Source of the DNA: Bacteroidales bacterium
GTDB lineage: Bacteria; Bacteroidota; Bacteroidia; Bacteroidales; Marinilabiliaceae
Direction of reading: 5' to 3'
Assembly (NCBI GenBank): GCA_024401335.1
Contig: JAKSLH010000008.1
Location: forward strand, 36,103 to 100,102
Length of the DNA: 64,000 bases
How positions within the stretch are numbered: position 1 is the first letter of the stretch; each line of letters starts with the position of its first letter. Both the position numbers and the translations under genes were made by a program. Below are positions 1,675-60,612 of the stretch, in pieces. A model generated the notes under the pieces. The model saw nothing but the letters and a program-made list of their open reading frames with translations. It was not told the origin of the DNA and did no database searches.

Positions 1675-3063
1675 TTATTTTGCAGCCTTAACAGGTCTGA
1701 TAGAAACACCAATGTTCTTGTCAGCCATGCTGTTGATAATCTTCTTAGAATTGTCAAACATACCATTGTTGAAAAGAAGGATGTTTGGCATTGAAGCGAT
1801 GCTGCCTATTGAGCCGAAACCACCGGCATTCTGCTCAGCACTGTTAGGGAAAGTATACTTACCAGATACTTCACCTGAAGCATAATAACCTGCAGCGCCA
1901 TTAGCGATCAATGTGTTCTCGTAGCGATAGCCAGCTGCTGGCAAGAAGATGCTGTTGCCGTTAGGACCTGTTACCTTATAACCAGCACCAGTATACTCCC
2001 ATTCACACTCCTTAATCAACTCATTGAGCTGAGCAGTAGTAGGCATAGCCCATTCTGCACCCCAGTTCTTAGTAGCTGCATCATACTTTGCATCACCAAT
2101 AATGCTCAAACCAGCAATGTCTGCATCGTGACCTTCGTTGTATGAAACGAAACCTTCTGATTCTACAATGAAATCAGCGTGGAGGTAATTGTCTGCATTG
2201 CTGTATACAGCTTCAGTGAAATAAGACCATGCAGTATCCTTTTCAGCAGTCGCCTTAGCCTCAGCTACGACTTTAGCCAAGTTGATTTCTGGATCAACTG
2301 GAACCAACTTCTGAATTGGGTCTGTGTAAGAAACCTTCTCTGCCTTTGCTACAACGTAAACATTGTATTCGTCTTCACCATAATCTTTGTCATTATTAGC
2401 GGCTTTGAGAGCATTATAATCAGCCAAGCCAGTAATCTCAAGAATATCAGCTACACTGACACCAAAAGACATAAGATACCTAGCGAGTGCAGGAGCATAA
2501 CCTTCTTCTGTATGAGACATAAAGACTCTACCTTCTTTTACAGTATAGACTTTGTCACATTTAGAGTCCTCCTTTATATCTTTTTTAGATACGTAATTGC
2601 CTTCTGCATCCTTATATGAATGTCTCTCAATAACGATATCACAATCAAAGTCTGGACGAACGCTATCAACTGCAACTACCTGGATATTCTCCAACTTAGC
2701 AATCTGAACATTGCCTTTATCAGACTTCAGATTACCCTTGCATGAGTTAAACAAGTCCTTTACATCAGGGCTAGTACCCTGAGCATAGGTGTCAGCCTTT
2801 ATGCTCAACTGTGTGCCTGTTACATCACCCCAGATAAAGCTTATGCCCATATCCTGTGCACTTGCAGCACCTACATTCTTGTCAGCCCATAGAGTATTTG
2901 AAGGCAAACCCAAGTCTACTGCGGCACCAACACTTGCAATGCTACTAGTGTTTGCATTGTATGGAGTGCCGATAGAAACTGTTTCATCATCATCATTACA
3001 AGCTACAAAAGCACCTGCAATAAATGTTGCGAACAAAATATTATTTAATCTATTTCTTTTCAT
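1675..3063 (-). CDS. Lipoprotein with a split FISUMP-type domain
   Basis: Predicted lipoprotein of 462 residues, lipobox ending at C22 and followed by NDDDE, the acidic pattern linked to surface export in Bacteroidetes. Start taken at the ATG at 3063, because only this gives a normal signal peptide; an upstream in-frame ATG at 3108 would overlap the preceding gene and add a non-signal leader. Residues 49-66 (VDLGLPSNTLWADKNVGA) match the N-terminal half of the FISUMP/major-paralogous domain. The usual partner motif (WAMPTTAQLNELI) appears only at about residue 338, so some 200 extra residues are inserted inside the domain. It is the last gene of the left SusC/D operon and has no counterpart in the right one. 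Ligand unknown; a surface glycan-binding role is inferred from context. Confidence 0.8.
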   Translation of the reverse strand: MKRNRLNNILFATFIAGAFVACNDDDETVSIGTPYNANTSSIASVGAAVDLGLPSNTLWADKNVGAASAQDMGISFIWGDVTGTQLSIKADTYAQGTSPDVKDLFNSCKGNLKSDKGNVQIAKLENIQVVAVDSVRPDFDCDIVIERHSYKDAEGNYVSKKDIKEDSKCDKVYTVKEGRVFMSHTEEGYAPALARYLMSFGVSVADILEITGLADYNALKAANNDKDYGEDEYNVYVVAKAEKVSYTDPIQKLVPVDPEINLAKVVAEAKATAEKDTAWSYFTEAVYSNADNYLHADFIVESEGFVSYNEGHDADIAGLSIIGDAKYDAATKNWGAEWAMPTTAQLNELIKECEWEYTGAGYKVTGPNGNSIFLPAAGYRYENTLIANGAAGYYASGEVSGKYTFPNSAEQNAGGFGSIGSIASMPNILLFNNGMFDNSKKIINSMADKNIGVSIRPVKAAK

Positions 3064-3097
3064 TGTAATGCTTTTTTTAAAACCATTAAGAGGTTTA

Positions 3098-3925
3098 TTA
3101 CTCCTCATAGTAAATTGAATGAACAGTCATTGTACCTGAGTAGAGCATGAGGTCAAGGTCTCTACCCTCACCACCTCTTGCACAGTCATTTGCGATTTGT
3201 CCTGTGAGAGCAAGTTCCCACTTGCCATCAGCGCTCATCTGCTTCTTGATAGGCACATGGTCATAGTAAGTTGCACTCCACCAGCCGTTCATCACCTTCA
3301 TGTCACAGTCGTCAGAAACGTCTGTCAACTCAAAGATAAGAGTCTTGCAGCCAAAGTATACATTATCATCGAGGTAAGGAAGATTTGTGAACAATGGTGA
3401 TGCCTCAAACTTGCCGTCTTCTTCGTTTGCAGAAACAGCAGTACCATATTGGCATCTACCTTCATTGTCGCTGAAACGCATTGCTGCAGCATCCCAAGCG
3501 CCTGGCTTAAATGCTGGCTGCTCTTCAGGATTCTCTCCGTAAATATATACTTTAACAAGAGGTTCTGTGATTGTCTCGCACTCTACCTCGTAGTCAGTAA
3601 CAAGAACAGTACCATCTGCGCAAGTAGCAGTGAGACGAACATTGTGCTTTCCAAGCAACATCTTCGACTTTGCATAATTGCTGACAAAAGCCTTACCGCT
3701 ATTTGATTCAGTAACATAACCGAGGTTCCATTTAGCATTAACTGGTGCCAATGTCTCACAAGTGATTACATTACCATTTTTTCCGTCTTTAGAGTCTACA
3801 GATACAGTTGTAGCGCTCCTGAGCTCTTCGACTGTAATATGACCTCCATTGCTGATCTCTTCCTGTTCAGGCTCGCAGGCAGTCATACCACATACTGTAG
3901 CTATTAATAAAAATATCTTTTTCAT
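3098..3925 (-). CDS. SusE/F-like surface lipoprotein with GWWS motif
   Basis: Lipoprotein of 275 residues with lipobox cysteine C17 followed by EPEQEE. The C-terminal third (NGWWSATYYDHVPI, then a conserved cysteine and a final beta-rich stretch) resembles the end of the 234-residue lipoprotein at 15761-16465 (TGWWSVNLCDDIPI). The two are therefore positional counterparts in the left and right operons. It starts 20 bases after the SusD stop. By position it is expected to be an outer-surface glycan-binding partner of the SusC/SusD pair; no fold or ligand can be read directly. The last 3 codons run close to the next gene, whose ATG is 34 bases downstream. Confidence 0.75.
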   Translation of the reverse strand: MKKIFLLIATVCGMTACEPEQEEISNGGHITVEELRSATTVSVDSKDGKNGNVITCETLAPVNAKWNLGYVTESNSGKAFVSNYAKSKMLLGKHNVRLTATCADGTVLVTDYEVECETITEPLVKVYIYGENPEEQPAFKPGAWDAAAMRFSDNEGRCQYGTAVSANEEDGKFEASPLFTNLPYLDDNVYFGCKTLIFELTDVSDDCDMKVMNGWWSATYYDHVPIKKQMSADGKWELALTGQIANDCARGGEGRDLDLMLYSGTMTVHSIYYEE

Positions 3926-3945: not shown

Positions 3946-5862
3946 TTAATAGAGTGTCACATACTGTGTCTTAGAATCTGCAGCATCCCAGCCATCGTTC
4001 TGCTTGATCTTGCCGTTAGAAAGTAAGATCTGAGCCTGTGGCTTCGACAAGAAGCCGTCAGTTGCTTCATAACGTTCTGTCCAAGAGCAAGTCATGTGCT
4101 TCATGATAGCCTTTTCAGTACCCTTGTTAACGATCTGCTTACCTTCCTGAGCCTGAAGAGCCTTAGAAGCGATACCGCCCTTATTGCCCTTGCCAGTCCA
4201 GCGACGCAAGTCGTTGAAACGGAGGCCTTCGAATGCAAACTCCCAACGGCGCTCGTCCTGTACAGCCTTCAAAGAGTAAGCTGTCTGAGGAACACCTGCA
4301 CGAGCCTGTACCTGGTTCATATACTGAGCATCACCAGTGAGCTCTGTAGCCATCAAGAGAACGTCAGCATAACGCATGAGGTAGAAGTCCTCGAAGTGGT
4401 CACCCTGCATACCGTTGTCAAGTGAGCTGCTTGAGAAGCCAGGAGCCTTTCTCCACCATGGGTTATCACCATCGCAAGCATCAAGAGTTACACCGTTGTA
4501 CTTCTTTACACCGTAGCCAGAAGCCTCGCAGCAGTCCTTTACGAAATCATAGTTGATTTCCTTGCCTTCCTTTTCACCAGTAGCGGCCATAGTAGGACCA
4601 TCAACACCGATAATCAAAGAAGCCTTCTTACGCTTGTCGATGTATGGCTTAGTAGGGTTGTTCTCTGCAATTGTCCAGTCGTCATAGATGTTGCATGAAG
4701 GAGTACCCTGGCCCCAGCCCTGTGTAAATGGATAAGTGTAGTCACGGTTACCATTGTTGCCGTTAACACGGAGAGCCCAGAAACATGAGAGGTAGTTACA
4801 GTACATACGTGGTGTTGAATAACCACCAGGAATAGCCCACTTAGATGCGTTCATGAACTGAATCTGGAAGAGTTCCTCTGGGTTGCCGTTGCCATTGCCA
4901 GGCATATCGAAGCAGTCTGCCTCGTCCATGTCAGCGATGTAGTCATAAGCATGGCCTACACCGTCCTTAGCCTCAGCCAAGAGAAGGCTGTTAGAGTACT
5001 GCCACAATGAACGGTAGTCCTTGAGAAGTCTGTAGCCGCTGTTGTTTACAACGTCCATAAGAGCGTCGATAACATCCTGCTTAGTGAGAGAAGTCTTGTC
5101 GCAGCCTTCCTGACCCTCTACGAGATCTACTTTTTCCACGTTACCAGTATAGAGCTCTGGAACCTTCTTGTAAAAGCCTGCCCAGAACATATATGCACGT
5201 GCAAGGAAAGCCTTTGCAACATAGCTGTTAGCGTGACCAGAACCGAACTCTACATTCTTGCTCATGAGGTTCATACCTGAGATGAAGTCAGAGAAGATCT
5301 GTGGATAAATCTTTTCTTCTGCACTAACCTGCTCCTCCATTTCTGGAGTCAATGTTGTAGAAGTAACCAAAGGTACATCACCGAACAACTGAGTGAGCCA
5401 GAGAGTGTAAAGACCGCGCATAAAGTAACCTTCACCGAGGAGCTGGTTGCGCTTTGCTTCTTTGCCTGTCCAGTCAACATTGTCGATTGTCTCAATCTGG
5501 TTGTTGGCACGTGAGATACCACCATAGAGGAGGATGAATGGCTCCTGATACTGGTCAACGCTCATCTCGGTCAAGTGATGGAGAGACTTGACCTTGTTGT
5601 CCTGAAGACCACCAGAGCCAAAGCAGTTGTCTGACATGACTTCCCACCAGTAGAAGATGTTCTGGTTGTCTGCGTCGCCGCCACCCATTGTATTCATGAT
5701 ACTGTAGGTAGCTGCATTCAAGGCCTCAACGTCTGCAGGCTTGCCAGGGAAGGTAGCCTGAGTCATTTCGGTAACACGTGGATCGGTGTCCAACATGTCG
5801 TTACAAGCAGTGAACGAAGCTGCTGAAAGCAAAGCCGCTGCTGTTAATATCTTGTTATTCAT
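3946..5862 (-). CDS. SusD/RagB-family nutrient-binding lipoprotein (left operon)
   Basis: SusD-type lipoprotein of 638 residues: signal peptide with lipobox ending at C20 (SFTAC), then NDMLDTDPR, the usual start of mature SusD proteins. The helical TPR-like core includes GEGYFMRGLYTLWLTQLFGDVPLV, and the C-terminus has the family signature DERRWEFAFEGLRFNDLRRW. SusD proteins cap the SusC barrel at the outer membrane and bind the substrate. It begins 23 bases after the SusC stop and is plainly cotranscribed with it. It is somewhat longer than the right-hand paralog (588 residues) and differs strongly in the binding region, so the two pairs probably take different ligands. Confidence 0.95.
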   Translation of the reverse strand: MNNKILTAAALLSAASFTACNDMLDTDPRVTEMTQATFPGKPADVEALNAATYSIMNTMGGGDADNQNIFYWWEVMSDNCFGSGGLQDNKVKSLHHLTEMSVDQYQEPFILLYGGISRANNQIETIDNVDWTGKEAKRNQLLGEGYFMRGLYTLWLTQLFGDVPLVTSTTLTPEMEEQVSAEEKIYPQIFSDFISGMNLMSKNVEFGSGHANSYVAKAFLARAYMFWAGFYKKVPELYTGNVEKVDLVEGQEGCDKTSLTKQDVIDALMDVVNNSGYRLLKDYRSLWQYSNSLLLAEAKDGVGHAYDYIADMDEADCFDMPGNGNGNPEELFQIQFMNASKWAIPGGYSTPRMYCNYLSCFWALRVNGNNGNRDYTYPFTQGWGQGTPSCNIYDDWTIAENNPTKPYIDKRKKASLIIGVDGPTMAATGEKEGKEINYDFVKDCCEASGYGVKKYNGVTLDACDGDNPWWRKAPGFSSSSLDNGMQGDHFEDFYLMRYADVLLMATELTGDAQYMNQVQARAGVPQTAYSLKAVQDERRWEFAFEGLRFNDLRRWTGKGNKGGIASKALQAQEGKQIVNKGTEKAIMKHMTCSWTERYEATDGFLSKPQAQILLSNGKIKQNDGWDAADSKTQYVTLY

Positions 5863-5885: not shown

Positions 5886-8800
5886 TTAGAACTTAATGCT
5901 TGCACCAACAGTCCAAGTACGTGATGGTGGATACAAACCAAGGTCAATACCAGATGCCCATGAGTCAGCACCACCTGATGAACCTACTTCTGGGTCGAGG
6001 CCAGTGTAGCCTGTGAATGTGTAGAGGTCAGATGCCTGTACATAGAGGCGGAACTGCTGGAATGGCATAGCCTTAATAAGCTGCTTGAAGTCGTAGCCGA
6101 GAGTTACAGACTTGATCTTGAAGTAGTCTGCATCTTCCATGTAGCGTGTAGACACCCAAACTTCGTTGTTGCTGCCATAGCAGATACGTGGCATTGTATT
6201 AGAAGTGCCTTCACCATGCCAACGGTTCAAGATTGTTGTATCATAGTTGTGCTGATAAGAGTCAGCATATGAACGGTATGAACGCATAATCTGCATACCG
6301 AATGCGCCTGCACCGTTTACAGAGAAGTCAAGACCCTTCCAAGTCAAACCAAGGTTAACACCGAGAGTCACGTCTGGGTTAGGGTTACCGATTTCATGCT
6401 TATCGCTTATATCGCTATCAGCGTATGTGATAACGCCGTCGTTGTTCCAGTCATCCCAGATGCAGTCACCTGGCTGTGCGTTGTCAAGAACAGCCTTGCC
6501 GTTTGCACGAGCCTCGTCGATCTGAGCCTGGTTCTGCCAGATACCGCTGTATGACATACCACGGAAGTAACCGATTGGCTTACCAATCTCAGCACGATAG
6601 ATATAGTCAGTACCCTGTGAGAGGATTGAAGCAGCACCATTGATGTAACCATTCTCGTTAGCGATACGAGTAACCTCGTTCTTGTTAGTAGCGAAGTTTA
6701 CACCTACATTGTAGCCAACCTGACCGATCTTGTCGTTCCAAGAGATTGCAAGTTCGATACCCTTGTTCTCAACGTCACCACCGTTGATGTATGCTGGGTT
6801 AGTACCCTGGATAGCGATGTGTGGACCAGTGATCAACCAGTCCTTAGTAGTCTTCTTGTACCAGTCGAAGTTTACAGACAAGCGGCTGTCAAGGAAGCGT
6901 GCGTCGAAACCGAGGTCGATCTGCTCAGAAGTCTCCCAAGTAAGGTCTGGGTTAGGAACGATATTTGCAAAAGCACCTGTGTTAGGTGTACCAGAAGTAG
7001 AAGTCTCCATTGAGCTGTCGAACTTGTAACCGTTGTCACCTGCGTCACCAGACTGTGCGATAGTTGCGAGGTACTGGTACTTAGGAATAGAGCAGTTACC
7101 GTTCTGACCCCAAGATGCACGGATCTTGAAGAAGTCAACGATGCCCTGAGCGCCTTCCATGAATGCCTCGTTAGACATCACCCAACCAGCAGATACTGAT
7201 GGGAATGAACCCCAACGGTGACCGTCTGCGAAGATTGAAGAACCATCACGACGTACAGTTACTGTAGCCATGTAAGTCTCGTTCAAGTCCCAGTTTACAC
7301 GACCGAACCAAGATGCGAGATATTCGTCATCGTTTGGCTTGCCTGTAAGAGTGACGTCAGTTGCCTGAGTTACCTTGAAGTTAGAGAGCCATGCCGAATC
7401 CCAGCCCTTGAGAGTTGCGAGCTGCTCGCCGCCATCAACCTTGTTAGAGCCGCCGAGGTTTGTGCTCCATGAAGAAGCCTGATAGCTCTGACCAACCAAC
7501 ACGCTGATCTTGTTGCCAGCGAGAACAGGAAGATCGTATGAGAGTGTGTTTTCAATAGAGTAGTTAGAGCTCATCCATGCGCTCTGGCTAGCGTTGTATG
7601 CGCTTACTGTACCAGAACCTGCCGATGGAGAACGTGGCTCAGCATAGCTGCGGTATGCACCTGCACCCCAACCATAGTTGAACTGTGAACGGAACTTCAA
7701 GCCCTTGATTGGCTGGATAGTCATGAATGCAGTAGCACCTACATTGAGGTTGCGGCTTTCTGCCATAGAGTTGAATCCACCCTTAGTAAGGCCTTCCCAT
7801 GGGTTGCTGAACCAGAAGTCATTCCAGCCAGTACCATAGTTTTCATGGTTGTAGACCTCACCGTTGTCAGCATACTGTGGCATAAGAGGAGTAGTCTGAA
7901 GCAAGCTGTGGATGTAGCTCCAGTACATACCGTCCTCAGCGAGGTCATGGCTTGTGTTGTACATGATAGACATGTTCTCACCGATAGTGATAGCATCGAA
8001 CTCGTTGTTCTTAGACTTCAAGAGCACGTGATCGCTGTTGAGGCGGATAGTGTGACGCTTGTAGAAAGAAGCCTGGTCAGCACCCATGATACCTTCATTG
8101 TCAGTGTATGTATAAGACATGGCGAACTTAGACTTGTCTGAACCACCAGTCAATGTCAAAGAGTGGTTCTGCTGAAGAACGTTGTCGTTCTGGAATACAT
8201 CCCACCAGTCAGTACCTTCCCAGCCAGCCTGAACCTTTGCGATGATGTCCTCTGGAACATAGTCAGCAAAGTTCATTGGAGCGCCGCTGTTGTTGAATGA
8301 GTTCTCATTCATGATCATCATGTACTGCTGAGCGTTCAAGAGCTGTGGACGCTTGTATACATTAGCCCAACCGAGGGCGCCATTGTATGTAAGCTCTACC
8401 TTGCCAGCCTTACCCTGCTTAGTAGTAACAAGGATAACGCCGTTGGCAGCACGTGCACCATAGATAGCTGCAGAAGCAGCATCCTTCAACACGTCGATGC
8501 TCTCGATATCGTTAGGGTTGATGTTTGCGAGGTCGCCGCCTGAAACACCGTCGATAACGTAGAGAGGAGCCGAATTACCGATAGTACCGATACCACGGAT
8601 ATTTACCTTAAAGCCCTTACCTGGCTGTGTAGATGACTGAGTGATCTGCACACCTGGAGTTGAAGATGCCATCGCACCAAGAGCGTTGGTAGTGTTAAGC
8701 TTGGCGATGTCATCACCCTTAACCTGTACTGTAGCACCTGTAACGAGCTTCTTCTTCTGAACACCGTAACCAACGACTACAACGTCGTCGAGAACGAGTT

Positions 8801-9134
8801 CCTGCATCTGCACTGTCATGCCTGGAGCGGCAGCCACTGTCTGGCTCTCGAAGCCTACGAACGAGAACTCAAGTTCCTGTCCTGCTTCAACACCTTTGAG
8901 AGTGAACTTACCATCGAGGTCGGTGATAGTTCCGTTTGTTGTACCCTTCTGGATAACGTATGCACCAACTACTGGCTCACCGTTAGGATCGAGTACAGTA
9001 CCGCTGATTTCCTTGCTCTGCTGCATTACAGCCATGTCTGGAGCTGCGAATGCCATAGCACAAGGAGCACTGCCTGACAACATAACTAATGCTGCTGCCA
9101 AAAAGAGTGCGTTCTTTTTCGAATTAAAATTCAT
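5886..9134 (-). CDS. SusC/RagA TonB-dependent transporter, left copy (currently behind the promoter)
   Basis: SusC-type outer-membrane receptor of 1082 residues. A signal peptide (about 1-30) is followed by a carboxypeptidase-regulatory-like domain (about 41-115), the DDVVVVGYG segment near 117-124, a plug domain (about 125-245, with LKDAASAAIYGARAANGV) and a long beta-barrel ending in aromatic-lysine-phenylalanine. Residues 1-146 are identical to the SusC at 10711-13938. After that the proteins differ throughout the plug and barrel, apart from family motifs. It imports a substrate captured by the SusD encoded 23 bases downstream. The consensus promoter at 9310-9341 and a leader of roughly 170 bases lie upstream, so this copy is inferred to be ON in the sequenced orientation. 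Confidence 0.96.
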   Translation of the reverse strand: MNFNSKKNALFLAAALVMLSGSAPCAMAFAAPDMAVMQQSKEISGTVLDPNGEPVVGAYVIQKGTTNGTITDLDGKFTLKGVEAGQELEFSFVGFESQTVAAAPGMTVQMQELVLDDVVVVGYGVQKKKLVTGATVQVKGDDIAKLNTTNALGAMASSTPGVQITQSSTQPGKGFKVNIRGIGTIGNSAPLYVIDGVSGGDLANINPNDIESIDVLKDAASAAIYGARAANGVILVTTKQGKAGKVELTYNGALGWANVYKRPQLLNAQQYMMIMNENSFNNSGAPMNFADYVPEDIIAKVQAGWEGTDWWDVFQNDNVLQQNHSLTLTGGSDKSKFAMSYTYTDNEGIMGADQASFYKRHTIRLNSDHVLLKSKNNEFDAITIGENMSIMYNTSHDLAEDGMYWSYIHSLLQTTPLMPQYADNGEVYNHENYGTGWNDFWFSNPWEGLTKGGFNSMAESRNLNVGATAFMTIQPIKGLKFRSQFNYGWGAGAYRSYAEPRSPSAGSGTVSAYNASQSAWMSSNYSIENTLSYDLPVLAGNKISVLVGQSYQASSWSTNLGGSNKVDGGEQLATLKGWDSAWLSNFKVTQATDVTLTGKPNDDEYLASWFGRVNWDLNETYMATVTVRRDGSSIFADGHRWGSFPSVSAGWVMSNEAFMEGAQGIVDFFKIRASWGQNGNCSIPKYQYLATIAQSGDAGDNGYKFDSSMETSTSGTPNTGAFANIVPNPDLTWETSEQIDLGFDARFLDSRLSVNFDWYKKTTKDWLITGPHIAIQGTNPAYINGGDVENKGIELAISWNDKIGQVGYNVGVNFATNKNEVTRIANENGYINGAASILSQGTDYIYRAEIGKPIGYFRGMSYSGIWQNQAQIDEARANGKAVLDNAQPGDCIWDDWNNDGVITYADSDISDKHEIGNPNPDVTLGVNLGLTWKGLDFSVNGAGAFGMQIMRSYRSYADSYQHNYDTTILNRWHGEGTSNTMPRICYGSNNEVWVSTRYMEDADYFKIKSVTLGYDFKQLIKAMPFQQFRLYVQASDLYTFTGYTGLDPEVGSSGGADSWASGIDLGLYPPSRTWTVGASIKF

Positions 9135-9154
9135 GTTTAGTACTATAAAAGATT
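8839..9154. repeat. Left arm of the susC inverted repeat
   Basis: This 316-bp stretch is the reverse complement of 10691-11006 with six mismatches (310/316), counted by hand. It includes an unbroken 241-base match (8839-9079 with 10766-11006), a 32-base match and a 28-base match around the ATG (9127-9154 with 10691-10718). Inside 8839 the copies keep identical protein sequence to residue 146 but collect silent differences. The abrupt perfect block inside more divergent sequence indicates recent exchange between the copies. Confidence 0.93.
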
Positions 9155-9185
9155 GATTGAATTAATATAAGTTTCTTTTTCTTGT

Positions 9186-9242
9186 ATTCATCCGACGAAG
9201 AATGAATTGTACGGCCCAGCCTCATAGGCTTCCCGTAGCGGG
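9186..9242 (-). promoter_or_regulatory. Structured 5' leader of the switchable susC transcript
   Basis: Three short hairpins lie one after another in the leader: CCCG/CGGG around CTA (9232-9242), AGCCT/AGGCT around a 3-base loop (9218-9230), and ATTCAT/ATGAAT (9186-9191 with 9202-9207). They sit between the promoter and the start codon, inside the putative invertible segment, so the same leader would precede either susC. The GC-rich pair stands out from the AT-rich surroundings. Whether it binds a small RNA or protein, or only stabilises the message, cannot be seen. Confidence 0.55.
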
Positions 9243-9309
9243 GGTTGACTTGCTTTCTTTCCTATACTTTTCGAGTTTTATCGTTTTGAACATAATTTGT
9301 TTTCAAGGT

Positions 9310-9341
9310 CAAAATTAGTTAGTTTTTTATTTTTTAACAAA
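9310..9341 (-). promoter_or_regulatory. Consensus Bacteroidetes promoter of left susC
   Basis: On the minus strand TTTG (9338-9341) is followed after exactly 20 bases by TAATTTTG (9310-9317), a full match to the Bacteroidetes -33/-7 consensus. Transcription should start near 9303, giving a leader of about 170 bases. No comparable element is visible directly upstream of the right-hand susC. Confidence 0.8.
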
Positions 9342-9742
9342 CATTCAGAGATAAAAAATAATACAAATGCAATAAAGTATATGTTTTTGATAAAATAATA
9401 TCAGTATACAACTACCAATATATACATAAAAAAAACATATTAACACAAGCAAAATCGACCTAATTGCGTATAAACCATTAAATTATAGTGCTAAAAACAA
9501 TATGTTTTACTAACAAATGAATAAATATACAGCTGATAAGACTGATAAAAAACATAAGTCCGCCACTACTTATTGATTTATATAGATTACCCTCAGATAA
9601 TCTAAAACATGTAAAAAAAATATTATGCCCGCCCGACAACCATTGCGTCCGCATTAATTAACAATTGTTAAATGGAAACTCGGTTTTTATAGGAAGACGT
9701 CAATATGAATAGGGATTAACACTCAAAAAAAAAAACATTTAG
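9342..9742. other. AT-rich gap upstream of the recombinase, with small palindromes
   Basis: No coding sequence is apparent. Two dyads stand out: TAGATTA/TAATCTA with an 8-base spacer (9583-9604) and the 14-base palindrome TTAACAATTGTTAA (9658-9671). Either could be an operator or a recombinase-binding site. I found no convincing TTTG/TAnnTTTG promoter for the recombinase on the plus strand. Confidence 0.5.
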
Positions 9743-10675
9743 ATGAAACTATTATCAAGAACGCACCTTTGGATATATAATATAGGTGCAATAAAGCTAA
9801 ATGCATATTTGAAGACGTATATAGAAAAGAAATATGCAGAAGGATACAAGGCACAAGACATGCTTAGAATGATGCTTGACAGTGTTGAACACTATGCAGG
9901 AGACAAGGTTCGCATTACAGATGTGGACATATCATTTTTCAAGGGATACATTCTCTACCTGAAAAACGAGTATGAGACTAGGCGGAAGCATCATGATGGG
10001 AAGCGAAGATTGAAACTTACGACAGCCAAGACATTATGTAACATGTTCAGTTCTGCAATCAATGATGCCGTAAGAAGCGGGGTCATTGACAAGAATCCGT
10101 TTAAGATGCTCAATTCTCACGAGAAGATACGTGCCGATAGCGAGTCACGATGTTATCTAACTATTGAGGAGCTTCAAAAAATGATCGATTGCGATTGTAA
10201 ATCGGAGCCGGTAAAACGGGCTTTTTTATTTATGTGCTTCACAGGCATGCGAATAAGCGATGTCAGAAATCTCAAATGGGGAGATATAGAGAATGACGGT
10301 AAGGTGATGAGGGCCAAGATAGTGCAGATCAAAACAGGCAACATGTTACATGTGCCAATATCGCAAGATGCGCAACATTGGATGATGGACAAGGACCATA
10401 ACATTGAGAGCGTCTTTAGCAGATTGCCAAGACTCACCGTAATGAATTACCAGATAAAGAAGTGGGCAAGGGATGCAGGAATAATAAAGAATGTCACCTG
10501 TCATGTAGCCCGGCACACCTTTGCGACCATGACCCTAACACTAGGGGCAGATCTGTACACGGTGTCGAAGTTATTAGGACATACAAACATCACGACCACA
10601 CAGATATATGCAAAGATTGTTAACGACAAGTTGATAGATGCTGTAAAACTGACTGAAGGACTATTTAAATACTAG
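9743..10675 (+). CDS. Tyrosine recombinase (site-specific integrase family), probable SusC invertase
   Basis: Recombinase of 310 residues with an N-terminal SAM-like core-binding domain (about 15-125) and a C-terminal catalytic domain. All expected active-site residues are present: R170 (FTGMRISDV), K197 (IKTG), H254 and R257 (HVARHTF), H280 (LLGHTN) and the nucleophile Y289 (TTQIYAKI). It lies between two divergent susC genes that carry inverted repeats at their 5' ends. Its stop is only 35 bases from the right susC ATG. Recombinases in this position in Bacteroides invert DNA to switch surface genes; that it acts on the susC repeats here is inferred. It lies inside the segment it would invert, so its own downstream neighbour would change with each flip. 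There are no other phage or transposon genes nearby, which argues against a simple integrated element. Confidence 0.93.
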   Translation: MKLLSRTHLWIYNIGAIKLNAYLKTYIEKKYAEGYKAQDMLRMMLDSVEHYAGDKVRITDVDISFFKGYILYLKNEYETRRKHHDGKRRLKLTTAKTLCNMFSSAINDAVRSGVIDKNPFKMLNSHEKIRADSESRCYLTIEELQKMIDCDCKSEPVKRAFLFMCFTGMRISDVRNLKWGDIENDGKVMRAKIVQIKTGNMLHVPISQDAQHWMMDKDHNIESVFSRLPRLTVMNYQIKKWARDAGIIKNVTCHVARHTFATMTLTLGADLYTVSKLLGHTNITTTQIYAKIVNDKLIDAVKLTEGLFKY

Positions 10676-10681
10676 ACAGTA

Positions 10682-10706
10682 AGTACTATAAATCTTTTAT
10701 AGTACT
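10682..10706. repeat. Perfect 11-bp dyad at the recombinase/susC junction
   Basis: AGTACTATAAA (10682-10692) and TTTATAGTACT (10696-10706) form a perfect dyad around a 3-base centre, in the 35-bp gap between the recombinase stop and the right susC ATG. The inner arm is shared with the left susC (in 9127-9154); the outer arm is not. It is AT-rich and lacks a T-run, so it is not a typical terminator. It could be a recombinase or regulator site, or a hairpin near the ribosome-binding region. Confidence 0.7.
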
Positions 10707-11006
10707 AAACATGAATTTCAATTCGAAAAAGAACGCACTCTTTTTGGCAGCTGCTTTGGTAATGCTGTCAGGCAGTGCTCCTTGTGCTATGGCATTCGCA
10801 GCTCCAGACATGGCTGTAATGCAGCAGAGCAAGGAAATCAGCGGTACTGTACTCGATCCTAACGGTGAGCCAGTAGTTGGTGCATACGTTATCCAGAAGG
10901 GTACAACAAACGGAACTATCACCGACCTCGATGGTAAGTTCACTCTCAAAGGTGTTGAAGCAGGACAGGAACTTGAGTTCTCGTTCGTAGGCTTCGAGAG
11001 CCAGAC
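10691..11006. repeat. Right arm of the susC inverted repeat
   Basis: Reverse-complement partner of 8839-9154 (310/316). The arms enclose about 1.5 kb (9155-10690) holding the promoter, leader and recombinase. Because the repeat starts upstream of the ATG and encodes the same residues in both copies, a crossover anywhere in it would leave both SusC proteins intact and only exchange what lies upstream. Confidence 0.93.
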
Positions 11007-13938
11007 TGTAGCTGCTGCTCCAGGCATGACAGTTCAGATGCAGGAACTCGTGCTCGACGACGTTGTAGTCGTTGGTTATGGTGTTCAGAAGAAGAAACTT
11101 GTAACTGGTGCTACAGTACAGGTTAAGGGCGATGACATCGCTAAGCTCTCAACAACATCTGTTCTCACAGCTATGCAGAGCCAGACTCCAGGTGTTACAA
11201 TCATGCAGAATAGTGGTCAGGCGGGCGAAGGTTACAAGGTTAACATTCGTGGTATCGGCACAACCGGCAACTCAGATCCTTTGTACGTCATTGATGGTGT
11301 TGCAGGCGGTAGCCTTAACGACCTAAACCCTTCAGACATCGAATCTATCGACGTATTGAAGGATGCTGCATCTGCAGCTATCTATGGTGCGCGTGCCGCC
11401 AACGGCGTTATCCTCGTAACCACTAAGCAGGGTAAGTCTGGCAAAATACAGGTGTCATATGATGGCTATTATGGCCAGCAGTATCTAGCAAAGGCTCCAG
11501 ATGCTCTCAATGCGCAGGAGTACATATACAGCCGTCAGCTTCGTTTCTTCAATGGTGGTGCCGACATACCAGATTGGCAGGGAAAACTTTCTGAAGATGT
11601 CTACCAGAAACTCTTCAATGAAGATGGGACTGTGAAGAAAGACGGATGGACAGGTACAGATTGGCTCGGCGAATCATATCACAAAGGCGCAATGACACAG
11701 AACCACTCTATTAATATAGCAGGCGGTAATGACATGTCAAAGTTCTCATTCGGTTTTGCATATACAACTCAGGATGGTATTTTTGGTGGCGAGACTCAGT
11801 CTAAGTTTGAACGTTACAACATTCGCTTAAACTCATCACATGCTATCTTGCGTTCAGAGAGTGGAAAGTTTGACATTATCACTGTAGGTGAAAATGTCAA
11901 CATAAACCGTAGCAATCGTAGAGGTATCTCCCAGAGCTCAATGTATTGGAACAATATCCATGACCTCATGATAGCCAATCCATTGATGCCTGTTTACGAC
12001 AAGGATGGTAAATACTATACCAACACAGAAATGTCAAATGATGGTTGGACACTCGGTTCTTCTGTAAACCCATTAGCAATTGCAGCTACTACTAGCCAGG
12101 GTTTGAACGAAAGCAACAACTGGAATGTAAACACAAGCGCTTATTTGGAAATACAGCCTATTAAAAACTTGATCTTCAAATCACAGTTTGGTTACCGTTT
12201 TGGATTCAACTCATATCACGCAATGACAAGAATCCATGCATCTGGCACAAACGAGGCTACCCAGGACAACGCATCACAGTCACTCAACTTGTGGTCAAAC
12301 ATCTCATTTGAAAACACTTTGACTTATACTTTCGACATCAACCAGAACAATATCAATGTCGTAGTTGGTCAATCAATTGAGAAAAACAAGTATGGCGAGC
12401 ATCTTGACGCATCAGGAAACAACCTCCTTTTCGGAGACAGCTTCAAGCATGCATACCTCAGCAACTCTCAGATCAAGAAGTTGGCAGATATAAATGTTAA
12501 CGGCAACCCATCAGGCGACAGCTCACTTGCATCGTTCTTCGGTCGTGTCAACTACAACTTCGCAGAAAAATATATGTTGCAGGCAACAGTCCGCGCCGAT
12601 GGTTCTTCTAACTTCGCAGAAGGTCATCGTTGGGGTATATTCCCTTCTGCATCAGCTGGTTGGGTAATAACGAACGAAGATTTCATGGATTCAACAAAGG
12701 ATGTAATGGACTTCTTAAAGATTCGTGGTTCATGGGGTCAAAATGGTAACTGTAACATTCCTAATTTCCAGTATTACACTCAGGTAGGTTTCGATACAGC
12801 AAACAGCTACTTCTTTGGAGCTGGTAACCATGATGAAGCTACAACAGGTGGTTCATTCAATACACTTGGCAACCCTGATCTTACTTGGGAAACATCTGAG
12901 CAGATTGACCTTGGTGTTGAAGCTCGCTTCATTGGTAGCCGACTTGGTTTCGGATTCGACTGGTATAAGAAAACCACTAAAGACTGGCTCGTTCGTGCTC
13001 CAATCCTAGGTGTTTACGGTATCGGTGCTCCATACATCAATGGTGGTGACGTAGAAAACAAGGGTATTGAGCTTGCAATCAACTGGAATGACCAACTTGA
13101 CAACGGCCTTCGTTATGGAATCTCTGCAAACATGTCTTATAACAAGAATGAAGTAACAAAGTTGGCTAACTCTGAAGGTATTATGCATGGTCCAGGCGCA
13201 GTATGGCATCAGCTTGAGGGCGAAATCTATCGCGCACAGGAAGGCCAGCCTATAGGTTTCTTCTATGGATTCAAGACAGCTGGTGTATTCCAGAATGGTC
13301 AGCAGATCGCCGAATACGATAAAAAGGACAATATCCACGGTGGAAATGATAAGTTGCGTCCTGGTGATTTGATCTTCGTTGACACAAACAACGATGGCGA
13401 AATCGATAACAATGACCGTACATTTATCGGCGATCCTCATCCAGACGTAACAATGGGTATAAGCCTCAACCTTGGCTTCAAGGGCTTTGATTTCTCTCTC
13501 ACAGGTGCAGGTGCATTTGGCCAGCAGATTCTCCGAACTTGGGCTAATCAGGACTTCCCAGTACAGAACCTTACAAAGAAGATTGTTAATGGTTCTTGGA
13601 AGGGAGAGGGCACTAGCAACAAGCTTCCTATATTCGATGGTTTTGATACTCCGAACTGGAAGAATATGTCATCAGCTATGCTTGAGGACGGTGATTACTT
13701 CAGAATCCAGAACGTAACACTCGGCTACGATTTCAAGACAATTTGGAAAAACAGCCCATTCTCACAAATTCGCCTCTATATTTCAGCAAACAACCTTTAC
13801 ACATTCACAAGCTATACTGGAATGGATCCTGAAGTTGGTGGCGAAGGTGGTTCTGGCAACTCATGGGCAGCTGGTATCGATACTGGCGTATACCCTAATC
13901 CACGTACTTATTTGGTTGGTGCAAACATTAAATTCTAA
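10711..13938 (+). CDS. SusC/RagA TonB-dependent transporter, right copy (no promoter of its own seen)
   Basis: SusC receptor of 1075 residues with the same order of parts as the left copy: signal peptide, regulatory-like domain, plug and barrel. Residues 1-146 are identical to the left SusC, with divergence from residue 147 (KLSTTSV versus KLNTTNA). The body carries family motifs (LKDAASAAIYGARAANGV, KIRGSWGQNGNC) but many substitutions in the barrel, pointing to a different ligand. Its start lies 35 bases after the recombinase stop on the same strand, so in this orientation it could only be transcribed by read-through from the recombinase. Inversion between the repeats would put the promoter at 9310-9341 in front of it. 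SusD follows after 35 bases. Confidence 0.96.
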   Translation: MNFNSKKNALFLAAALVMLSGSAPCAMAFAAPDMAVMQQSKEISGTVLDPNGEPVVGAYVIQKGTTNGTITDLDGKFTLKGVEAGQELEFSFVGFESQTVAAAPGMTVQMQELVLDDVVVVGYGVQKKKLVTGATVQVKGDDIAKLSTTSVLTAMQSQTPGVTIMQNSGQAGEGYKVNIRGIGTTGNSDPLYVIDGVAGGSLNDLNPSDIESIDVLKDAASAAIYGARAANGVILVTTKQGKSGKIQVSYDGYYGQQYLAKAPDALNAQEYIYSRQLRFFNGGADIPDWQGKLSEDVYQKLFNEDGTVKKDGWTGTDWLGESYHKGAMTQNHSINIAGGNDMSKFSFGFAYTTQDGIFGGETQSKFERYNIRLNSSHAILRSESGKFDIITVGENVNINRSNRRGISQSSMYWNNIHDLMIANPLMPVYDKDGKYYTNTEMSNDGWTLGSSVNPLAIAATTSQGLNESNNWNVNTSAYLEIQPIKNLIFKSQFGYRFGFNSYHAMTRIHASGTNEATQDNASQSLNLWSNISFENTLTYTFDINQNNINVVVGQSIEKNKYGEHLDASGNNLLFGDSFKHAYLSNSQIKKLADINVNGNPSGDSSLASFFGRVNYNFAEKYMLQATVRADGSSNFAEGHRWGIFPSASAGWVITNEDFMDSTKDVMDFLKIRGSWGQNGNCNIPNFQYYTQVGFDTANSYFFGAGNHDEATTGGSFNTLGNPDLTWETSEQIDLGVEARFIGSRLGFGFDWYKKTTKDWLVRAPILGVYGIGAPYINGGDVENKGIELAINWNDQLDNGLRYGISANMSYNKNEVTKLANSEGIMHGPGAVWHQLEGEIYRAQEGQPIGFFYGFKTAGVFQNGQQIAEYDKKDNIHGGNDKLRPGDLIFVDTNNDGEIDNNDRTFIGDPHPDVTMGISLNLGFKGFDFSLTGAGAFGQQILRTWANQDFPVQNLTKKIVNGSWKGEGTSNKLPIFDGFDTPNWKNMSSAMLEDGDYFRIQNVTLGYDFKTIWKNSPFSQIRLYISANNLYTFTSYTGMDPEVGGEGGSGNSWAAGIDTGVYPNPRTYLVGANIKF

Positions 13939-13973: not shown

Positions 13974-15740
13974 ATGAAAAAGATATTTTTAATGGCAGCT
14001 ACTGCAGTCCTTGCCCTTACATCTTGCGAAGACTTCCTTGATTCACAAGATTATACAGGCAAGAACAGCACAAACTTCCCTACAACCAATGAAGACGTTG
14101 ACAAGATGGTTGCCGCCGTATATAAGTCATGCTTCTATGGTCCATTCCAAGGTAATAACCTTGAGCAGTATTTCTCTGTAGCTAATATAATGTCTGATGA
14201 TATGTTTGGTGGCGCCGGACTCGGTGACCCATGGTGGCAAGCAATCGACAAACTCATGTATGCACAGACAAACCAGATGTCCGACCTTTGGACATATGCA
14301 TACGAGACTATCGCTCGCGCAAATTCAGCATTGAATGTTATTGACAACATCGCTGATGAAGATGCACGTAATCAAACTAAAGGCGAGCTTCTCTTCATGC
14401 GTGCGTATAGCTACTACAACCTTGTACTTGCGTTTAATAATGTACCTATAATCGAAAAGGCACCTGAAACAGTTGCTGAAGCACAGGAAGCACCAAAACA
14501 GGTTGAAGGCAAGGAAGTTTTTAAACGCATTGCTGATGACCTCTATTTGGCTACTTCTATCATGCCTGGAAAAGACAAAGGTTATGAATACAAGAGCCTT
14601 TGGTCTGGTAAACTTGCGTTTGGCAAGGTTAGCCGTTGGGCTGCAGAAGCATTCCTTGGCCGTGCATTCCTTTTCTATACAGGTTTCTATGGTGAATCAA
14701 GCATGCCTATGACAGATGGCAAAGCTATAGAAAAAGCTTACGTAGAAGAGAAGTTGAAAGATTGTATTGAGAATTCTGGCCACAGTCTTTTGAAAGATTA
14801 TCGTTCTTTGTGGGCATACTCAAACAAGTATACTGCTAAAGATTACGAATATGTAAAGGATTTGAATGAAGCAGATTGCTATCAAGAAGGTAATGCAGAA
14901 GTGCTCCTCGCTATCAACTTCCAGTATCAGTCTGCATGGTCATCACAGCTCCATTTGACTAACCAATATGGTTTGTTCTTTGGTATCCGTTCAGATAATA
15001 ACGAGCCTAAAGACTCTCGTTACTATGTTGGCAATGACGACTCTGTATATCCATTCGGTGGAGGATGGGGTTGTGGCACTGTTGCTACTAACTTGGTTAA
15101 TGATTGGAAGAAAATTGAGCCAGATGACCCACGCCGTGAAGCCTCTATACTTGACATGAGCAAAACAACTCTTGATCCTGGAACATTCTCTGATGCTGTA
15201 GAGTTGTCTATGTATCATCAAAAGAAGATTACTTCAGTACGTTCTTCGGGTGGCAACAGATATTCATGGTCACTTGATGCAATGGGAGCTGATGCTGCAG
15301 AGACTGGTAACTATCAGGCTTCAAACTGCACACCATTGACTATCTATCGTTTAGCAGACGTTTATTTGATGTATGCTGAGTTGACCAAGGATGCAACATA
15401 TTTGAACAAGGTACGTGAACGTGTTGGTTTGCCTGCTGTCGCTTACTCTGAAGAAGCGCTTCGTAACGAACGTCGTTGGGAGCTAGCATTCGAGGGTAGC
15501 CGTTGGGATGACCTCCGTCGTTGGGGCATTGCGGCTGAAGCTCTTTCAAAGCAGAATGGTCAGGCTATGTATAACCTAGGCAAGGCTACTACTATGACTT
15601 TCAACAACTATGCTGAACGTTACAATGCAACCAAGGGCTTCTATCGCATTCCAAAGAACCAAATTGAACTTTCTGGTGGCGTATATGTACAGAACAAAGG
15701 TTGGGAAGATGATGCTGCAAATCAGTTCGCAGGTTACTAA
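13974..15740 (+). CDS. SusD/RagB-family nutrient-binding lipoprotein (right operon)
   Basis: SusD-type lipoprotein of 588 residues with lipobox cysteine C18 (LALTSC), mature start EDFLDSQDYTGKNS, a TPR-like helical core (GELLFMRAYSYYNLVLAFNNVPII) and the C-terminal signature NERRWELAFEGSRWDDLRRW. It would cap the SusC encoded just upstream and bind its substrate. It is a paralog of the left SusD (3946-5862) but the middle regions differ widely, consistent with alternative ligands for the two receptor pairs. It is followed 20 bases later by a small surface lipoprotein. Confidence 0.95.
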   Translation: MKKIFLMAATAVLALTSCEDFLDSQDYTGKNSTNFPTTNEDVDKMVAAVYKSCFYGPFQGNNLEQYFSVANIMSDDMFGGAGLGDPWWQAIDKLMYAQTNQMSDLWTYAYETIARANSALNVIDNIADEDARNQTKGELLFMRAYSYYNLVLAFNNVPIIEKAPETVAEAQEAPKQVEGKEVFKRIADDLYLATSIMPGKDKGYEYKSLWSGKLAFGKVSRWAAEAFLGRAFLFYTGFYGESSMPMTDGKAIEKAYVEEKLKDCIENSGHSLLKDYRSLWAYSNKYTAKDYEYVKDLNEADCYQEGNAEVLLAINFQYQSAWSSQLHLTNQYGLFFGIRSDNNEPKDSRYYVGNDDSVYPFGGGWGCGTVATNLVNDWKKIEPDDPRREASILDMSKTTLDPGTFSDAVELSMYHQKKITSVRSSGGNRYSWSLDAMGADAAETGNYQASNCTPLTIYRLADVYLMYAELTKDATYLNKVRERVGLPAVAYSEEALRNERRWELAFEGSRWDDLRRWGIAAEALSKQNGQAMYNLGKATTMTFNNYAERYNATKGFYRIPKNQIELSGGVYVQNKGWEDDAANQFAGY

Positions 15741-15760: not shown

Positions 15761-16465
15761 ATGAAGAAATTAATTTTATCTTTGGCGGTTGTATTCGCTT
15801 CTGCATTCACTGCATGTGATCCTGTTGAGGATTTCACTGAAAATACAGCCAAGAACTTCACGGGTGATCAAATAGATGCAACCCTCGTTCAGAACAATGG
15901 TGAAAACCTTGTTCAGGTTACTGTTCACACAGATGGAACAGCCCAGATTTCAAATGGCAAGCAGACAATCAAGGCAAACTATGCTGACTTGATCCTGCGC
16001 GAAATGGGCGAAAATACTGTTTATGTTACAATGCTTACCGCTGATGGCAACATTGTTGAAAAGCAGTATAAGGTTAATGTTACTTCTATGCCTCATGAAC
16101 TCCCTGTTCTCGAAACTATCGTATGGCAGGGTGAAGAAATAGGTGGCGGATGGTCGGGTACTCTTCGCTTCTGTGTTGGCCAGACAAATGAGGGTGTTCT
16201 ACCTTATCTTCCAGATGAAACATACGACTGGATGGTCGGAAAGAAGATGAGTCTCGATATTAAAGAGGCTAGTGCAGATGCGACAGTTCGTATCACAACT
16301 GGATGGTGGTCTGTAAACTTGTGTGACGACATTCCAATTTCTGGAGCTCCATGCAAAATTCAGTTTGAGATGACTCAGGAATTTGCAGATGTTTGTAAAA
16401 CTCAGCATTTGCTATTCACTGGTAATGGTAGCTATACTATCACAAAGTTTTATTTTGAACTCTAA
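15761..16465 (+). CDS. SusE/F-like surface lipoprotein with GWWS motif
   Basis: Lipoprotein of 234 residues with lipobox cysteine C19 followed by DPVEDF. The C-terminal region (TGWWSVNLCDDIPI, a cysteine before the last strands, and a final aromatic beta segment) aligns by eye with the end of the lipoprotein at 3098-3925. It takes the same third place in the right operon. The probable role is outer-surface glycan binding alongside SusC/SusD; this is inferred from position. The terminator at 16486-16522 follows directly, so this is the last gene of the operon. Confidence 0.75.
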   Translation: MKKLILSLAVVFASAFTACDPVEDFTENTAKNFTGDQIDATLVQNNGENLVQVTVHTDGTAQISNGKQTIKANYADLILREMGENTVYVTMLTADGNIVEKQYKVNVTSMPHELPVLETIVWQGEEIGGGWSGTLRFCVGQTNEGVLPYLPDETYDWMVGKKMSLDIKEASADATVRITTGWWSVNLCDDIPISGAPCKIQFEMTQEFADVCKTQHLLFTGNGSYTITKFYFEL

Positions 16466-16535: not shown

Positions 16536-17843
16536 ATGAAAAAAAGAGTAGTCGAATACAGTCTCTCTTGTATCATCGGTGTCCTTGCTTACTTTTTCTG
16601 GGCTTTGCCTTTCAGAAGCGTACTCAATTATCACGAAGAGTTTCAGCTCTTTCTTTTAGATTCCGATTACTTTTTGTCTCATCTAAAACAGATGGGTGGT
16701 TTCTCTGTGTATATATCAGAATTCTTTGTTCAGTTTTACAACAATTATTGGATTGGTAGTATTGTTATTGCTATTGAGTTCTTTTTCATACATCAACTTA
16801 CATTGACTATTCTAAAATCTTTTAATGTCTTTGGGGTTAATAACTACCGTATCCTCATATATTGTTTATCACTTGTTCCTACATTAGTTCTATGGCTTGT
16901 TTTAGGTGATGTCAATATAATGCATTCTCTGATAATTGCTGTTATTATTGCTTTGCTGTTGCTTTATGTTCTAGTTATAACCATTCATTCTGCTACCTAT
17001 AGATTTATAGGTTTATTCTTAGCTCCAATTGCCTATGTCTGGCTTGCTGGTACAAGCCATTACCGTATTCCAAACTCAACGTTCTCTTTCGAACATGTAT
17101 ATAACCATAAGACTTTGCAGATCCTCGATTATGATTTTCTTGTTCGTACCAACCGTTGGCAACAGATAATTGAATCGTCAGAACAAAAACAACCTGACTT
17201 GCCTCTTACTGTCTGTGCAACCAATTTGGCTCTAGGAATGACCAATCAGATAGGACGTCGTGCTAAAGAGTTTTATCAGAATGGTACCGAGGGGCTTTTC
17301 CCTCCATTTACAAAAGAATCTTTTTCAACATTAACCACTGCCGAGGTCTATTTTCACCTTGGGTTAATGAATACTGCTCAAAGATATTATTTTGAAGCGA
17401 TGGAAGCTTCGCCCAATTATTCGAAGAGTTGCCGATGTATTCGTCGCCTTGCAGAAACCAACATGATAAATGGTCAGTATGAGGTCGCACGAAAATATCT
17501 TCATATTCTTTCGAAAACTCTCTTTTATAAGAAATGGGCTTGTCGTACTTTACAATTGATTAATGCAGGTGACTGGGCTATATTACAACATCCATTGTAC
17601 GGACGCCTTCGTCGTATGCGACTAAATGAGGACTTTCTGTTTAGCGATCGTGAGATTGATAAGATTTGTGGACGACTGCTTATGCATAATAACGAAAATG
17701 TTCTCGCTATGCAGTATATGTTGTTTTATACCTTGTTAGAGAATGACTACAATAAGTTCATACAATATATGCATCTTGTCAAAAACGAAATGTCTTATTG
17801 CCAAGAACTGGCTTCATTTGAAAAGTATGTTCAAAAACATTAA
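16536..17843 (+). CDS. DUF6057-like membrane protein with TPR-like C-terminal half
   Basis: Protein of 435 residues. The first 180 residues hold about five to six hydrophobic segments (near 9-27, 71-93, 103-122, 128-150 and 155-172). The rest is soluble and helical, with a TPR-like pair (AEVYFHLGLMNTAQRYYFEAME, then YEVARKYLHILSKTLF). It is the counterpart of the truncated gene at 1-1574, again placed after the operon terminator. Family placement in DUF6057 rests on architecture and context recalled from Bacteroides; no activity can be assigned. The next gene begins 11 bases after its stop, so the two are probably cotranscribed. Confidence 0.6.
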   Translation: MKKRVVEYSLSCIIGVLAYFFWALPFRSVLNYHEEFQLFLLDSDYFLSHLKQMGGFSVYISEFFVQFYNNYWIGSIVIAIEFFFIHQLTLTILKSFNVFGVNNYRILIYCLSLVPTLVLWLVLGDVNIMHSLIIAVIIALLLLYVLVITIHSATYRFIGLFLAPIAYVWLAGTSHYRIPNSTFSFEHVYNHKTLQILDYDFLVRTNRWQQIIESSEQKQPDLPLTVCATNLALGMTNQIGRRAKEFYQNGTEGLFPPFTKESFSTLTTAEVYFHLGLMNTAQRYYFEAMEASPNYSKSCRCIRRLAETNMINGQYEVARKYLHILSKTLFYKKWACRTLQLINAGDWAILQHPLYGRLRRMRLNEDFLFSDREIDKICGRLLMHNNENVLAMQYMLFYTLLENDYNKFIQYMHLVKNEMSYCQELASFEKYVQKH

Positions 17844-57360: not shown

Positions 57361-57393
57361 TTCATTAATTGAAGAATTAAACTTTTGAAAACT

Positions 57394-60585: not shown

Positions 60586-60612
60586 CCGTGTAACTTATTA
60601 TTAGAATACAAT

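Follow-up and report, generated by a model that had tools for sequence, protein, structure and literature searches.

The 64,000 nucleotides (nt) of DNA analysed here, which we call the window, belong to the genome assembly GCA_024401335.1 of a Bacteroidales bacterium of the Marinilabiliaceae (contig JAKSLH010000008.1, positions 36,103 to 100,102 of the forward strand). The window contains two divergently oriented susC genes, SusC_L and SusC_R, which have a tyrosine recombinase gene between them and whose 5' ends form the two arms of a long inverted repeat (table 1), an arrangement that we discuss as a putative inversion switch between two receptor operons. Both genes encode full SusC/RagA proteins (TIGR04056, 837 and 865 bits), the identity of which amounts to 100% in residues 1–146, 78% in residues 147–240 and 46% from residue 241 to the end. 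The identical part spans the carboxypeptidase-regulatory-like domain (residues 43–109) and extends into the beginning of the plug match (residues 131–233).

The arms are 460 nt long, agree in inverted orientation at 441 of 460 positions (96%, 19 mismatches) and enclose a spacer of 1530 nt. They start 23 nt 5' of each ATG and stop one base before codon 146 ends, i.e. the repeats overlap the start codons of both susC homologues, which is a feature of the SusC/SusD inversion systems of the Bacteroidales. A preliminary description of this DNA had reported a near-identical inverted repeat over the ATG region, and indeed 310 of 316 positions agree there (6 mismatches in 10691–11006), 241 of them without a break, with the full repeat being longer than had been claimed. 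With an N-terminal query of 117 residues, the genome itself yields two matches and no more at E <= 1e-20, both at this locus, so the repeat is not a product of chance; the genome is 84.6% complete, which bounds the copy counts of this N-terminal module as well as of the recombinase.

An important question is how the DNA of the two arms has stayed so similar. All mismatches within their coding part (18/18) are synonymous and are placed towards the arm ends. Where the two proteins have the same residue, the codons differ in 5 of 18 cases in residues 1–18, in 1 of 80 in residues 19–98 (codon 19), in 13 of 48 in residues 99–146 (one of these by the last base of codon 146, just beyond the arm) and in 33 of 73 in residues 147–240. 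Protein constraint thus cannot explain the identity of the DNA, given 33 of 73 differing codons in residues 147–240 versus 1 of 80 in residues 19–98. When 18 differences were placed at random, a run of at least 79 clean codons appeared in 1 of 100000 trials, and because such a run is so rare, the arms have exchanged sequence. The clean core of 241 nt looks like the trace of gene conversion or homologous recombination, one of which has probably also been at work on the arms.

Crossing over within the repeat would leave both receptors intact, because residues 1–146, which include the signal peptide, the carboxypeptidase-regulatory-like domain, the TonB-box region and the start of the plug, are the same in both. 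In a simulation, both SusC proteins remained unchanged at 459 of 459 crossover positions inside the repeat, and both were changed at 4 of 4 positions outside it. The earlier statement that the proteins are identical up to residue 146, then diverge and would survive recombination in the repeat therefore holds for every position simulated.

The gene between the arms had been described as that of a complete tyrosine recombinase, and its open reading frame (ORF) is intact, with activity predicted from the sequence. Its catalytic positions are filled (R170, K197, H254, R257, H280 and Y289) in an alignment with three other recombinases of the genome, assigned by the catalytic residue scheme of tyrosine recombinases. 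A domain scan found no arm-binding domain in this protein; the domain is present in 4 of 5 scanned relatives from other genomes and absent from three further recombinases of the same genome. This genome holds no close second copy (the next match by E-value is at 2.6e-13, with 35% identity over 171 residues). Elsewhere in the genus, the lowest E-value in 14 other genomes is 1.6e-40, for a match of 36% over 214 residues, with some short stretches exceeding 36%. At the level of the family, matches at E <= 1e-40 occur in 3 of 70 other genomes. In a sample of the order, 15 of 392 other genomes have matches at E <= 1e-48 (best 2.3e-68, 43%), and 167 of 393 genomes, the own genome counted, have one at E <= 1e-18. 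Relatives lie at five distant loci among the genome contigs and at none among the viral contigs. Among the matches listed in the order sample, all but the window's own are frames of at least 349 amino acids (aa), barring one of 285 aa with an internal stop. Because these relatives are longer and integrase-like, with an arm-binding domain in 4 of the 5 scanned from other genomes, the enzyme of the window looks like a shortened, dedicated relative of the integrases of mobile elements.

The spacer also contains a candidate promoter. Scanning the DNA between the outer arm ends for an xTTG box, a gap of 18–22 nt and TAnnTTTG yielded one perfect site (minus strand, 9341–9310) versus 0.14 expected in shuffled intergenic DNA. 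Its −7 box begins 183 nt before the ATG of SusC_L; on the other side, only 35 nt separate the recombinase stop codon from the ATG of SusC_R. With one mismatch allowed, 2 intergenic sites were found versus 1.5 by chance, which is no better than chance. The claim that only one side carries a consensus promoter thus holds only in part, for a single perfect, left-reading site, itself a candidate. A scan for sigma-70 promoters gave 7 sites versus 6.5 by chance and hence nothing above chance, the switch region has no match in Rfam, and the folding of the leader is not unusual (z −0.52). Since no terminator-like site was reported between the recombinase and SusC_R, whichever operon lies behind the recombinase could receive a low level of read-through. 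In an inverted sequence built in silico, the candidate promoter reads into SusC_R. As a separate observation, the A+T-rich leader of SusC_L (28.7% GC in the non-coding spacer) contains a G+C-rich stretch at 9200–9250, and a similar stretch, judged by eye, lies at a similar distance from the susC gene on contig C105 of the sister species G012.

A candidate crossover site lies where the right arm meets the spacer, a short way ahead of the right ATG. It is a perfect 11-3-11 dyad, and an equally good one turned up in 3 of 300 shuffled intergenic sequences. No other site for it with fewer than 2 mismatches occurs in the genome. A 17-nt leader site has two exact matches in the genome, with the counts of extra copies of this site or of the dyad not above those of a reversed control.

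The genes that follow on either side form two complete alternative susC/susD pairs with a common 5' end, each at the head of a longer operon. The order on the left is SusC_L, SusD_L, a 275-aa protein, an extra 477-aa protein, DUF6057 and PD40, and on the right SusC_R, SusD_R, a 234-aa protein, DUF6057 and PD40. Corresponding proteins are 55% (SusC), 33% (SusD), 23% (the small protein), 25% (DUF6057, over 134 aa) and 32% (PD40) identical, and no glycoside hydrolase was found among the operon proteins scanned. By gene order and identity, the two operons are paralogous and built on the same plan, and a switch would choose between whole operons. A sister species (G006, contig C59, locus L094, 5741–12209) has an L-type operon with two successive DUF6057–PD40 pairs, the second of which is the best match for the DUF6057 and PD40 proteins of the right operon in the window (44% and 47%). 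Two plus-strand open frames at 715–1475, antisense to the left DUF6057 gene, are probably not genes, and towards the far end of the window (57385–62424, plus strand) there are two long open frames of susC/susD size, judged by size only.

Table 1. Position and strand of the features of the locus in the window.
Feature	Position	Strand	Remarks
DUF6057 protein, left operon	1..1574	-	begins at 1574 and leaves the window; PD40 protein next, outside the window
477-aa protein, left operon	1675..3108	-	no match among right-operon proteins
275-aa protein, left operon	3098..3925	-	no Pfam family; lipoprotein-like N-terminus predicted from sequence
SusD_L	3946..5862	-	
SusC_L, TonB-linked outer membrane receptor	5886..9134	-	1082 aa
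Left arm of inverted repeat	8698..9157	-	23 nt leader plus SusC_L codons 1–146 minus last base
Left copy of unbroken 241-nt core	8839..9079	-	pairs with 10766–11006
Mirror position of dyad, left arm	9139..9163	-	one half and centre kept, other half degenerate
Candidate Bacteroidota promoter TTTG-N20-TAATTTTG	9310..9341	-	reads into SusC_L; after inversion would read into SusC_R
Tyrosine recombinase	9743..10675	+	310 aa; SAM-like and Phage_integrase (catalytic) domains; stop 35 nt before SusC_R ATG
25-nt dyad AGTACTATAAA-TCT-TTTATAGTACT, candidate recombinase site	10682..10706	+	inner edge of right arm, just before right ATG
Right arm of inverted repeat	10688..11147	+	23 nt leader plus SusC_R codons 1–146 minus last base
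SusC_R, TonB-linked outer membrane receptor	10711..13938	+	1075 aa
Right copy of unbroken 241-nt core	10766..11006	+	codons 20–98 identical
SusD_R	13974..15740	+	
234-aa protein, right operon	15761..16465	+	23% to left-operon 275-aa protein
DUF6057 protein, right operon	16536..17843	+	435 aa, below the profile length of 569 positions
PD40 protein, right operon	17855..19333	+	

The reading that we favour, to which we give a probability of roughly three in four, is that the locus is a self-contained two-state inversion switch that puts one promoter and its leader before either of the two receptor operons. The segment between the arms would carry the recombinase as well as this single promoter with the leader. 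In the orientation sequenced, the promoter would read left into the SusC_L operon, and the right operon, directly behind the recombinase gene, would lack the space for a separate promoter. The resident tyrosine recombinase would most likely be the enzyme that inverts the segment between the arms, after which the promoter would read into SusC_R and the recombinase would precede SusC_L. We infer that the segment flips, that the recombinase does this, that the promoter is in use and that expression of whichever operon follows the recombinase is low or absent. What supports such a two-state switch, as already envisaged in the preliminary description, is the anatomy of the locus, i.e. the arms, the intact recombinase gene, the promoter candidate, the preservation of both proteins and the parallel operons, together with past module exchange between body types in sister species.

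This exchange became visible in the 14 other genomes of the genus (74 to 99% complete). A receptor body of the L type occurs in five of them, in G006, G009, G010 and G011 at 77–82% identity and in G013 at 78 and 83% in two pieces, a count that leaves out G002, where a partial match of 65% lies at the end of a contig; the next match is at 57%. The R type occurs in one (G012 at 65%), and the next match is at 49%, besides part of the L-type gene of G013 (52% over 483 residues). None of the 14 genomes has both body types together. Compared with the relatives that have a matching body, the window receptors show 38–43% identity in residues 1–110 and 65–82% in the body. Conversely, the R-type gene of G012 and the L-type genes of G010, G011 and G013 share leader and N-terminus (79–81% of the DNA over 671–674 nt, 82–92% in residues 1–110) with bodies that are only 43–44% identical. 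A third N-terminus is found on the L-type body of G009, with 46–51% identity to those of G010, G011 and G013. In codons 115–140, the window is 84–94% identical to the five relatives with an intact 5' end, a block whose end at codon 140 is that of the compared stretch. Promoter, leader and N-terminus have thus been joined to differing bodies, with a junction somewhere between approximately residues 110 and 240, where the repeat of the window ends. Such joining could stem from inversion or conversion across repeats followed by loss of one side, and ordinary horizontal replacement of a body would leave an equal pattern.

SusC, SusD and recombinase relatives as well as inverted repeats were also sought in 38 larger regions and the five distant loci, with no second example of the arrangement. 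Among these, only G006 has a recombinase relative and a susC relative within one region, more than 12 kilobases (kb) apart, and only locus L081 of another genome of the order (G453:C19:73000-91000) has inverted repeats of at least 40 nt, with no SusC relative found there. The repeats of L081 measure 295 nt (89%) and 186 nt (87%) and have two tandem integrase genes between the arms, possibly another invertible segment. The flipped form of the window's locus, for which related genomes had been named as one place to look, was not found in these regions and loci, an absence that says nothing because each species is represented by one genome. Contig C105 of G012, which ends inside the N-terminus of the related susC, was considered as the edge of a collapsed switch and dropped, as G012 has no second contig with the same end; a small upstream ORF on C105, recombinase-like by eye, has no Pfam match.

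Several observations weigh against the switch as we propose it. The promoter is a consensus match only, and no perfect match occurs upstream of the 6 related susC genes scanned. The left counterpart of the dyad is poor and was not recovered in a genome search with up to 3 mismatches. The recombinase has longer relatives of the integrase type in the order, so its retained activity as an invertase is predicted rather than proven. Furthermore, no recombinase like that of the window lies beside susC in G009, G010, G011 and G013 (approximately 3 to 8 kb upstream examined; the comparison omits G006, where the contig starts inside susC, and G012, where it stops approximately 280 nt upstream of susC), and modules can thus be exchanged within the genus even where susC has no such neighbour. 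As N-termini also vary among L-type genes, this exchange is not special to the L/R pair either. Finally, site-specific exchange by itself homogenises no long tract, whereas gene conversion or homologous recombination does, which is why one of the latter has probably acted here too.

This last point leads to the alternative that the segment inverts by homologous (RecA-type) recombination over the long arms, with the recombinase being a relic or acting elsewhere. Arms of 460 nt with an unbroken core of 241 nt would suit such a process, a homogenised centre with diverged ends is its usual trace, and the four sister species without a recombinase beside susC have exchanged modules nevertheless. However, what lies exactly between the arms is an intact recombinase that lacks an arm domain and has no close second copy in the genome, and the right arm has a dyad of the recombinase-site type at its inner edge. 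We consider this explanation unlikely. There may also be no switch at all, i.e. divergent susC neighbours could share their N-terminus by gene conversion, with the recombinase as a passenger from which the right operon is read through. That SusC N-termini are swapped between genes across the genus generally is in line with this, as are the 35 nt between the recombinase stop and SusC_R with no terminator-like site reported, which make read-through possible. Gene conversion would account for the repeat, yet it would not explain why inverted arms enclose an intact recombinase together with one perfect promoter, and selection on the protein alone cannot hold the DNA identical, as the codon differences in residues 19–98 versus 147–240 illustrate; such a passive origin of the locus seems quite improbable to us.

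A wider version of the proposed switch is more speculative, and we offer it as a tentative and rather doubtful possibility. The mobile unit may be an expression cassette in which promoter and leader are combined with a shared N-terminal module for TonB docking, and which in the course of evolution captures and exchanges entire receptor operons. Sister species would have fixed differing combinations of cassette and body, and the present species would have kept both bodies on one cassette along with its own recombinase, with the dyad serving as the crossover site and gene conversion keeping the coding repeats alike.

If the two-state switch is real, each cell would display one of two SusC/SusD receptor systems, and a clonal population would thereby hedge with regard to nutrients and possibly also to phages or antibodies directed at the receptor, with a role of these receptors in glycan uptake or phage sensitivity being speculation. 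The interest of the locus lies in its compact layout of two states, in which the segment contains the recombinase and which makes it a clean test object, and in the trace of exchange between module and body in sister species. Whether receptor operons move behind N-terminal cassettes that they share can be addressed directly by comparing the sequences of these species. This trace, left in the sister species by N-terminal modules that were exchanged among receptor bodies, adds an element to what is known of such systems.

Invertible promoters are usually on/off switches with short repeats outside genes. The present locus differs from a simple invertible promoter in that its 460-nt arms cover 146 codons and each orientation would drive a complete operon; its place outside this class would change if the 25-nt dyad were the true site. 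What it shares with the invertible promoters of the Bacteroidales, in which inverted repeats flank a promoter whose orientation decides expression (PMC10939037, PMC12632263), is the presence of inverted repeats around a promoter, here a candidate. Nor is the locus a multi-site shufflon with at least three sites, as two copies of the N-terminal module were found at E <= 1e-20 in the 84.6%-complete genome. The exact layout was not encountered in the literature searched, the key original papers being outside its reach, and we claim no novelty on this ground.

Tsr stands for a recombinase of the tyrosine type. SusC/SusD inversions by Tsr0667 of B. fragilis are mentioned in PMC4747536 and PMC11852207, and the former names this enzyme as responsible for inversions of the shufflon type at nine further regions besides three SusC/SusD clusters. 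Similarly, a DNA invertase, albeit a predicted one, would vary SusC/SusD expression here; unlike Tsr0667 with its many regions, however, the recombinase sits at the locus itself, and its candidate site was not found elsewhere in the genome with fewer than 2 mismatches. In B. thetaiotaomicron, nutrient-receptor shufflons are described as phase-variable, and one of them is reported to have shifted in earlier work when the cells were exposed to phage (PMC12548429). Closest in organization is the 'intergenic shufflon' of ragA/susC and ragB/susD pairs in Region EE of B. fragilis, as outlined in PMC5729914, which credits its reference 28. There, too, extensive inverted repeats lie over susC start codons, and inversion puts alternative pairs behind one promoter. 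This invertible promoter is followed by three gene pairs in one strain and by six genes in a second strain. In contrast to Region EE as outlined there, the present locus consists of two complete operons and two arms, with the candidate promoter and the recombinase inside a single segment. Overall, the locus is known in kind and, well supported in its anatomy and with its action predicted from that anatomy, would work like the systems of B. fragilis and B. thetaiotaomicron.

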